Shown here in pieces: positions 8,356 through 10,348 of a DNA stretch of 40,037 nt. The position numbers were made by a program, and so were the translations under genes. Source of the DNA: Candidatus Nitrosopelagicus sp. (lineage in GTDB: Archaea > Thermoproteota > Nitrososphaeria > Nitrososphaerales > Nitrosopumilaceae); contig JAOMDR010000012.1 in the NCBI GenBank assembly GCA_028345575.1, positions 1 to 40,037 of the forward strand, read 5' to 3'. Position 1 is the first letter of the stretch; each line of letters begins with the position of its first letter. The notes under the pieces are model-generated. The model was not told the origin of the DNA. It saw nothing but the letters and a program-made list of their open reading frames with translations, and searched no databases.

Positions 8356-9131
8356 TAAAAAAATTATTAATTTTTCTAATAATATTGTCCATAGCTATTC
8401 CATTCGCTGATGCGGTTCCACTCTCTGATAAAACCGGTCTTAAATTCACATTTCCTGTAAAAACAGATGATTATACATTTACAGTTGAGGCTACTGGAAA
8501 TCTTGATGTAACCAATCTTGATTTTGATAAAGAAAAAAAATCAATCACGTTATTTATCTTAAGTTCTTTAGAAAATAATTCACTTGAGATAAGTTTTCCT
8601 AATACATTGATTGGCGGTGATTATTCTATATTTGTAGATGGTGAAAAATTTACACCGAAATTACAAGAAGGAAGTAATACGACATTTGTAACGATGGATT
8701 TTACGGGAATGGGAAAACACAAAATAGAGATAGTTGGAACTACATATCTTGATGTTTTTGAAATTAAAGATATAATTGATTATAAAATATCTGATGGGTA
8801 TGTTGATGATATTGATGAAAATCAATCAACTAATTCTCTAATTTTCACATTATTTGATCCTGGCGATAACGGAGTATTGTCTATAAAATTATATGACGAG
8901 ATAATGACTCCATTTGAAGATGGTTCCTTTATTGTATTGATTGATGATGTAGAATCTGATTACATACTTGATGGTGATACTATGAATATCATATTTAATT
9001 CTAATAATAAAACAATTGAAATTTTTGGAACATATGTAATCCCTGAATTTCATGAAATTGCACCATTAGTTCTTGCAACTTCTTTTATTGGTTTGATAGT
9101 TTTAAAAAAATATAAAAAATTATTCGTTTAA
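8352..9131 (+). CDS. exported surface protein with PEF-CTERM-like sorting tail
   Basis: Function unknown; likely displayed on the cell surface. The 259-residue protein has a signal peptide (about 1-21, ending PFADA) and two beta-sandwich repeats (about 30-135 and 140-228). Each repeat ends in a similar strand (KHKIEIVGTTY and NKTIEIFGTYV). It finishes with IPEFHEIAPLV at about 230-240, a hydrophobic helix and a basic end (KKYKKLF). This matches the archaeal PEF-CTERM arrangement recognised by archaeosortases, but with His where thaumarchaeal proteins usually have Gly (PEFG). The ATG overlaps the L15e stop by four bases, implying translational coupling. The 3' end overlaps the convergent thioredoxin-like gene by 12 bases. 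Confidence 0.75.
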   Translation: MIKKLLIFLIILSIAIPFADAVPLSDKTGLKFTFPVKTDDYTFTVEATGNLDVTNLDFDKEKKSITLFILSSLENNSLEISFPNTLIGGDYSIFVDGEKFTPKLQEGSNTTFVTMDFTGMGKHKIEIVGTTYLDVFEIKDIIDYKISDGYVDDIDENQSTNSLIFTLFDPGDNGVLSIKLYDEIMTPFEDGSFIVLIDDVESDYILDGDTMNIIFNSNNKTIEIFGTYVIPEFHEIAPLVLATSFIGLIVLKKYKKLFV

Positions 9132-9773
9132 TAATTTTTCAATCATAGATTCTAAATTTGCTGTCTGACCAAATGAAACGTCTCGTAGTATTCCTTTTCT
9201 ATCTACTAAAATTGTAGATGGTGTCCCATTCAATTGGTACATTTCAAACGTCTCCGCTGAGTACTCTTTAGTTTTGAAATACTCTCTTACTCTGGAAAAA
9301 ATCTGCTCTTTGTAATCCTCTGGTTGTGTGTCAAAATCTGGTATCTGATTTTTGACAAATGCGGTCATCTTTTCTTTAGTTGGCTCTCCTGCTTTTACCA
9401 ATGAATCCATTGCAACTGGGTATGGAATCTTGTATGATAATTTTCCTTCATTGAGTTGACCATATTGTGATAATGCCTGTTTTGTATCTCCGACAACTTC
9501 TCCTGTTGTAAGAAGCATCTCTAAATTCTCTAATGTATTTTTGTCATAATCCTCAAATGCAGTTGCTACCCCCATTACTGATAATCCATCTCCTTTGAAT
9601 TTTTGATAAATGTTAATTATTTCTGGAATTGAATGCATAAAACATCCTGGGCAATTTACTTGAAACACTTCGACTAGTTTGACATTATCTCCTTCTTTGT
9701 CAAAGTTTGTATCCATTCCTTGAACCCATTTTCCTAATTTGAGATTTGGTGCTTTTTCTCCAATTACTACCAT
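9120..9773 (-). CDS. thioredoxin-fold / peroxiredoxin-like (TlpA-AhpC type) protein
   Basis: Likely a thiol oxidoreductase or peroxiredoxin-like protein. The chosen ATG gives 217 residues beginning MVVIGEKAPNLKLGKWVQG, the usual AhpC/TSA-type entry strand. The active site C41-P-G-C44 (VNCPGCFMHS) lies at the start of the first helix, and the cis-proline loop is GTPST, followed by the ILVDRKGILRDVSFG hairpin. No signal peptide remains, so it should act in the cytoplasm. A longer open frame upstream adds 34 residues of low-quality sequence crossing the promoter of the divergent gene and is rejected. A long insert between the active site and cis-Pro (about residues 80-165) sets it apart from simple thioredoxins. 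Confidence 0.75.
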   Translation of the reverse strand: MVVIGEKAPNLKLGKWVQGMDTNFDKEGDNVKLVEVFQVNCPGCFMHSIPEIINIYQKFKGDGLSVMGVATAFEDYDKNTLENLEMLLTTGEVVGDTKQALSQYGQLNEGKLSYKIPYPVAMDSLVKAGEPTKEKMTAFVKNQIPDFDTQPEDYKEQIFSRVREYFKTKEYSAETFEMYQLNGTPSTILVDRKGILRDVSFGQTANLESMIEKLLNE

Positions 9774-9859: not shown

Positions 9860-10348
9860 ATGGATGTAGTACCACAATCTAGAATTGATCTCTTTGCAGA
9901 GATGGAATCTCATTATGAAAAACAAGATACTGAATATTTTGTTAAATTATTAGAGCATGAAGATTATGTTGTTAGATGTAGAGCCACATGTATCATAGTT
10001 GATCTTGGTGGTGAGGATAAAGTCCAATATATTGCCAAAGTTCTCAAAGATGATCCAAATGAACTAGTTCGTCATGAGGCTGCATTTTCATTAGGCCAGA
10101 TGTGTTATAGTAGTGGAATTGCACCACTTGAAGATGCTACTGCAAATGATCCTAGCATGTTTGTTAGACATGAAGCAGCAGTTGCACTAGGAGTTGTTGG
10201 TTCTACAGGTGAGCCTGAGGTCTTAGAAAAAGCACTAAATGATCCTGAAGAATCTGTAAGACATTCTGCAGTAGTTGCATTGTCTAATCTTGAATTCATG
10301 AAAACATTATGTAAAAATGAAAAGTTTGGTAAACTTACTGGCGGCTAA
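9860..10348 (+). CDS. HEAT-repeat protein resembling half of deoxyhypusine hydroxylase (DOHH)
   Basis: A 162-residue protein of HEAT repeats. Two repeats carry His-Glu pairs, H72-E73 (LVRHEAAFSLGQM) and H104-E105 (FVRHEAAVALG), 32 residues apart. Eukaryotic DOHH binds its di-iron centre through four HE pairs, two per half, with almost the same spacing and flanking sequence (HExxYxLGQ...MVRHExxEALGAIG.PEVL). The window protein keeps GEPEVLEKA and the closing LEFMK, which correspond to PEVLEIL and LEWL. It could be a single half that dimerises to build a complete site acting on aIF5A. Alternatively it is a generic PBS-lyase-type HEAT scaffold. The third repeat has H135-S136, so only two pairs exist. 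A TATA-like ATTAAAAA lies 22-29 bases upstream. It ends in a four-base overlap with the convergent rad50. Confidence 0.65.
   Translation: MDVVPQSRIDLFAEMESHYEKQDTEYFVKLLEHEDYVVRCRATCIIVDLGGEDKVQYIAKVLKDDPNELVRHEAAFSLGQMCYSSGIAPLEDATANDPSMFVRHEAAVALGVVGSTGEPEVLEKALNDPEESVRHSAVVALSNLEFMKTLCKNEKFGKLTGG

Follow-up and report, generated by a model that had tools for sequence, protein, structure and literature searches.

A half-size HEAT-repeat protein of Nitrososphaerota as a candidate homodimeric counterpart of deoxyhypusine hydroxylase

Deoxyhypusine hydroxylase (DOHH) hydroxylates deoxyhypusine at a di-iron centre with a stable peroxo intermediate, and hypusine was reported in archaea around 1990. 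The human enzyme consists of two symmetrical domains with four HEAT repeats each (PMC3306375). In a review, its iron anchors are given as H56, H89, E90, H207, H240 and E241, and its substrate-binding residues as E57, E90, E208, E241 and two glycines, printed G65 and G214 (PMC9117371). Judged by the register of the sequence, the first of these glycines should be that of the LGQ motif, residue 63. According to papers from 2012 to 2020, no archaeal DOHH homologue was known, yet several archaea contain hypusine (PMC3306375, PMC5178350, PMC6105217, PMC7773846). Some anaerobic archaea carry deoxyhypusine only (PMC9599864). Our literature search, with subscription papers mostly outside it, found no paper on hypusine in ammonia-oxidising archaea or on deoxyhypusine hydroxylation in Thaumarchaeota. 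The titles and abstracts of the later papers listed on archaea and DOHH report no archaeal DOHH, and a prior description elsewhere is possible.

A half-size protein in register with both halves of DOHH

The window, that is, the whole stretch of 40,037 nucleotides of Candidatus Nitrosopelagicus sp. that was analysed, carries an ATG-initiated open reading frame of 162 residues at 9860-10348 on the plus strand. Named Nitrosopelagicus contigs carry proteins identical to the window's. A preliminary description of this DNA had pointed out two His-Glu (HE) motifs 32 residues apart in HEAT repeats, and the reading frame agrees with it. The pairs are H72-E73 (10073-10078, plus strand) and H104-E105 (10169-10174, plus strand), the spacing is exactly 32 residues, and Pfam HEAT_2 matched at 3e-22, together with other HEAT models. 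The flanking motifs LGQM, VRHEAAVALGVVG and LEFM were also found as quoted there.

An AlphaFold2 model was built from an alignment of 12 sequences and reached a mean pLDDT of 91.7. Its predicted helices are consistent with four HEAT hairpins preceded by an N-terminal helix and followed by a disordered tail. Repeats 2 and 3 carry the HE pairs in equivalent helices, in each case a few residues from the helix start. Residues 156-162 had a pLDDT below 50. The conserved C-terminal tail KLTGG (10331-10345, plus strand) is therefore probably disordered, and TGG stands at the very C-terminus in 111 of 120 distinct proteins of the orthologous family, which we call family A.

The human DOHH sequence used as query is identical to PDB 4D4Z over residues 1-289. 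When it was searched against the genome of the window, the sole match was the window reading frame (E 1.3e-11, 34%). Conversely, the family A profile aligned with human DOHH residues 19-135 and 164-278, at 67-72 bits per half, and in both half alignments HE fell on HE, HE on HE and GQ on GQ. By these alignments H72-E73 is the equivalent of H56-E57 and H207-E208, and H104-E105 is the equivalent of H89-E90 and H240-E241. G79 lies seven residues past H72, in the register of DOHH G214 and its N-half equivalent, and belongs to the Gly-Gln G79-Q80 (10094-10099, plus strand). The iron-ligand set of a DOHH half is thus present in register as H72, H104 and E105, and the substrate-site Glu and Gly have their counterparts in E73 and G79; all five residues are invariant in family A. 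Each DOHH half contributes His, His and Glu as iron ligands and Glu and Gly to the substrate site, and family A has exactly one such set per chain.

Conservation of the HE pairs was then judged against the rest of the protein. Of 118 distinct strong homologues, 117 have HE-32-HE; the remaining one is a draft sequence in which some residues are undetermined. Dereplication of family A gave 32 sequences, all less than 85% identical, which represent about 11 family-level lineages within Nitrososphaerota and related Thermoproteota. Both HE pairs and G79-Q80 were invariant in all 32; the preliminary description had named pairs that are not conserved in orthologues as a refutation of its reading, and they are conserved. 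The alignment has 23 invariant columns, which include R71-H72-E73, G79-Q80 and R103-H104-E105, and the HE pairs are kept down to homologues 37% identical to the window protein. As a background rate, HE-32-HE occurred in one of 1,792 non-HEAT reading frames of at least 100 residues in the DNA around the loci examined. It was absent from the other HEAT proteins read from 16 genomes (open frames of about 830-950 residues, one of 275), with the exception of a second half-size family, family B, described below.

The preliminary description had read the protein as one half of DOHH and possibly an ancestral form of it. The first part stood up well in profile comparison, in which both halves matched and DOHH was the top natural protein of the PDB search with 133.7 bits, followed by proteasomal RPN2 (45.5), yibA (43.7) and CpcE (28.9). 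The entries above DOHH were designed HEAT proteins, namely alphaReps, their fusions and 6veh, a trimer designed from a HEAT repeat protein. Foldseek gave the same picture: 4d4z came first among natural proteins, designed HEAT proteins ranked higher, and human DOHH (4d4z_B) superposed with an rmsd of 1.8 over 130 columns and a TM score of 0.72 by query length.

The identity to the window protein was 36% for a designed alphaRep and 31 and 34% for the DOHH halves, and 17 of the 23 invariant columns were matched by the alphaRep against 17 and 18 by the halves. A bacterial four-repeat HEAT domain, taken as a negative control, reached 45 bits against the family A profile and contained no HE at all. 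Overall similarity therefore shows the fold only, and it is the active-site residues, together with their register, that carry the claim of a relation to DOHH. The columns missed by the alphaRep include H72, E73, Q80, H104 and E105, and both DOHH halves have all five.

Human DOHH was also searched against a plasmid collection, which gave two Bacillus matches only; the one examined, which is the bacterial negative control above, belongs to a CvfC-family protein, of which it forms the HEAT part. For the phylum, the listed matches that were strong and full-length have open frames of at most 237 residues, and no full-length relative with four HE pairs was seen among them. In the tree, the two human DOHH halves stood together, among family A and not family B; the alphaRep sequence also stood there, and the branches were long. 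The ligand and substrate-site equivalents are all conserved, and the ancestral part of the earlier reading is left ambiguous by the tree and by identities that a designed HEAT protein exceeds.

Distribution, oxygen and the hypusine pathway

Of 199 near-complete genomes in the class, 178 gave a match to the family A profile, nearly all of them strong. Outside the order of the window, nine genomes of the phylum sample gave strong matches (E 1e-53 to 1e-63): G044 of family f20, G240, G265 and G330 of f33, G285 and G354 of f46, and G441, G455 and G467 of f70. The weak matches of this sample, where read, were generic HEAT proteins. COX1 of the haem-copper oxidases (PF00115) was found in all nine of these carriers. 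Within the class, the eight families with family A (f1, f2, f3, f8, f9, f10, f14 and f20) were all COX1-positive, against three of the nine families without it (f4, f6 and f19; none in f7, f12, f13, f18, f21 and f22, the last few scored so because they do not appear among the listed matches). A one-sided Fisher test over the 17 families, calculated by hand, gave 0.007, an indicative value since families are not independent. The association with COX1 fits an O2-dependent enzyme and is also compatible with other reasons for gene sharing among aerobes. COX1-bearing lineages without family A also exist, namely f4, f6, f19 and most of genus g40. Sulfolobus contains hypusine, and the putative Sulfolobales-like lineages gave no strong family A match in the phylum sample; another archaeal route must therefore exist.

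Two disrupted copies were observed. In the one-contig genome G123 (C1), the family A gene lies in two pieces, 1373297-1373536 and 815677-815904, which are 557 kb apart, because of either a misassembly or an inversion that cut the gene. In G034 a truncated remnant (L265:10229-10420) lies 5.3 kb from a deoxyhypusine synthase (DHS) gene and directly after an apparent tRNA 3' end, as read from the translation.

Both partners of the pathway are widespread in these archaea. DHS (PF01916) was found in 39 of 41 genomes of a set of relatives, including all 14 near-complete ones. The preliminary description had named a DHS gene elsewhere in the genome as a check; none was found in the window's own draft, and the relatives supplied it. 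The draft (1.10 Mb in 41 contigs) is 86% complete and the near-complete relatives all have DHS, which makes a gap in the assembly the likeliest reason for the missing gene; we dropped its absence as counter-evidence. Two DHS paralogues, scoring about 345 and 280 bits against PF01916, are present in most genomes of the order. A match to aIF5A was obtained in all 11 genomes searched, that of G025 being partial. In the window's genome the gene lies on another contig (G000:C23) and has the modification loop SKPGKHGAAKA. Leaving G025 aside, the loop was intact wherever it was read, as SK(P/T)GKHG(S/A)AK or nearly so, with FKPGKHGSAK in G033.

Direct adjacency of family A to DHS was observed in one lineage, f33, among about 11 family-level lineages, which is suggestive. 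In G330 the family A gene (L153 6007-6504, plus strand) is divergent from a DHS gene (L153 4900-5931, minus strand; PF01916 4e-90), with 75 bp between them, and a second DHS gene (L153 3991-4911) adjoins the first. The whole cluster (L153:3299-8101) comprises the two DHS paralogues, the family A gene, a SLOG-family protein and a ferritin-like protein. Two other genomes of f33, G265 and G240, have a DHS gene at a distance of about 5 kb from the family A gene. Elsewhere, no DHS or aIF5A gene was found in the flanks of full-length family A copies, which mostly covered 1.5 to 6 kb per side.

In the window's own family, the neighbours of family A are a redoxin gene and rad50. Within the window itself no hypusine-pathway gene lies near family A, whose neighbours there are the redoxin gene and a rad50-mre11-herA-nurA-like cluster. 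The redoxin-like protein (9120-9773, minus strand) has an NCPGC motif and is the divergent neighbour of family A in about 80 loci. It is possible that it serves as an electron or redox partner, or that it lies there by chance. In 23 loci of other genera its place is taken by a conserved protein of about 150 residues that starts with RYWxL and has no Pfam match (for example L166:5274-5729 and L061:5505-5960, both on the minus strand).

Proposed reaction, family B and alternative readings

By analogy with DOHH, we infer the dimer, the iron, the substrate and the reaction, and propose that family A is a homodimeric di-iron half-DOHH which hydroxylates deoxyhypusine on aIF5A. We give this reading a probability of about 0.57. 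One chain would form four HEAT repeats; repeats 2 and 3 would each carry an HE pair close to where the corresponding helix begins. Two chains would then assemble into a symmetric homodimer, in which two sets of H72, H104 and E105 surround two irons in the ligand layout of the DOHH halves (H56/H89/E90 and H207/H240/E241). E73 and G79 of each chain would line the pocket for the deoxyhypusine side chain, as their human equivalents suggest. With O2 and an electron donor, deoxyhypusine in the SKPGKHGAAKA loop of aIF5A would be hydroxylated to hypusine, after the action of DHS.

A homodimer is proposed because one chain bears half of the DOHH ligands. G066, a one-contig genome of the same genus that is 99% complete, gave a single match to the family A profile, and no further HEAT protein with an HE pair was found among those read there. 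With a single HE-HE HEAT protein in that genome, the partner would be a second copy of family A itself. No tandem or full-length version of family A was seen.

Family B is a second half-size HEAT family of about 166 residues, found in many Nitrosopumilaceae and Nitrososphaeraceae and not seen in Nitrosopelagicus. Its loci are L169, L170, L174-L187 and L189-L193 (for example L170:2740-3309 and L191:2824-3321, both on the plus strand). It has two HE pairs, 32 residues apart and both invariant, mostly Ala-Ala where family A has Gly-Gln, and the conserved motifs RWD and KR..R of its own. Profile comparison of the two families gave a probability of 99.7% over 125 columns, and in the tree family B formed a separate branch with full support. 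Family B may represent another di-iron protein, acting on a different substrate. Half-size HE-HE HEAT proteins, represented by families A and B, appear to be a recurring archaeal design.

The existence of family B bears on the reading that family A, too, is a DOHH-like homodimeric di-iron protein acting on something other than aIF5A, such as a protein side chain, a metabolite, or O2 or peroxide itself. These archaea have put the HE-HE half-size scaffold to use at least twice, once with the GQ altered; family A is usually not close to DHS or aIF5A, and the redoxin adjoins it in most Nitrosopumilaceae. However, family A keeps the Gly that is reported as a substrate-site residue and the Gln of both DOHH halves, and DHS adjoins it in G330. 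We consider another substrate unlikely, though a serious alternative.

It is less probable still that family A is an ordinary metal-free HEAT scaffold in which the HE pairs are structural. This would agree with the designed HEAT proteins, which are equally similar overall and outrank DOHH in both fold and sequence searches. But HE-32-HE is missing from the designed proteins and from generic HEAT proteins of the same genomes, the H, E, H and E are invariant in two separate half-size families, and family A is associated with O2 respiration through COX1.

Families A and B might instead be the two halves of one heterodimeric enzyme. B is equal in size, has two invariant HE pairs at equal spacing and shares many genomes with A, but A is present without B in the window's genome and in G066, the near-complete genome of Nitrosopelagicus, and G125 of genus g40 has B without a strong A match. 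We regard this pairing as highly improbable.

A phycobilin-lyase (CpcE/F/NblB) type of HEAT protein, which the preliminary description had named as a possible better match, was dropped as practically negligible on profile scores and fold ranks: the NCBIfam scores for NblB (33.7 bits) and CpcF (23.9 bits) are far under the cut-offs of those models (300 and 220), CpcE stands at 28.9 bits against the 133.7 of DOHH in the PDB profile search, CpcE and CpcF appear only at ranks 38 and 41 of the fold search, and these archaea are not known to have phycobiliproteins.

Under the half-DOHH reading, family A is a concrete candidate for the missing archaeal enzyme, with named residues and in a culturable group (Nitrosopumilus, Nitrososphaera). 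The findings suggest that an unduplicated counterpart of the internally duplicated eukaryotic DOHH survives today, and that these archaea need O2 for the second step of hypusine synthesis. The wider claim, that the homodimeric half-DOHH both makes hypusine in aerobic Nitrososphaerota and other Thermoproteota and is the form whose duplication and fusion gave eukaryotic DOHH, is tentative, and we would sooner doubt it than adopt it.

Comparison with known systems

CpcE/CpcF and NblB have HEAT_PBS repeats like family A, but match it much more weakly by sequence and fold. The designed alphaReps and generic HEAT_PBS proteins share its fold and repeat consensus, at 36% identity for the alphaRep. They differ in that they lack both the HE pairs and the Gln that follows the Gly, and the alphaReps are not natural proteins.

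DOHH (EC 1.14.99.29; human 4D4Z) is built, like family A, from a unit of four HEAT repeats, of which the second and third carry HE, with Gly-Gln past the first HE. The spacing of the pairs is 33 in DOHH versus 32 in family A, and both systems occur together with DHS and the IF5A substrate. In contrast, one DOHH chain contains two units, with eight repeats and four HE pairs, joined by a linker, whereas a family A chain is one linker-free unit with four repeats and two pairs. Family A, known here by its sequence, further differs in its extra conserved C-terminal TGG tail and in its identity of 31-34%. It has the HEAT-repeat fold of DOHH, but is strictly no DOHH, since the number of repeats and of HE pairs per chain is halved.
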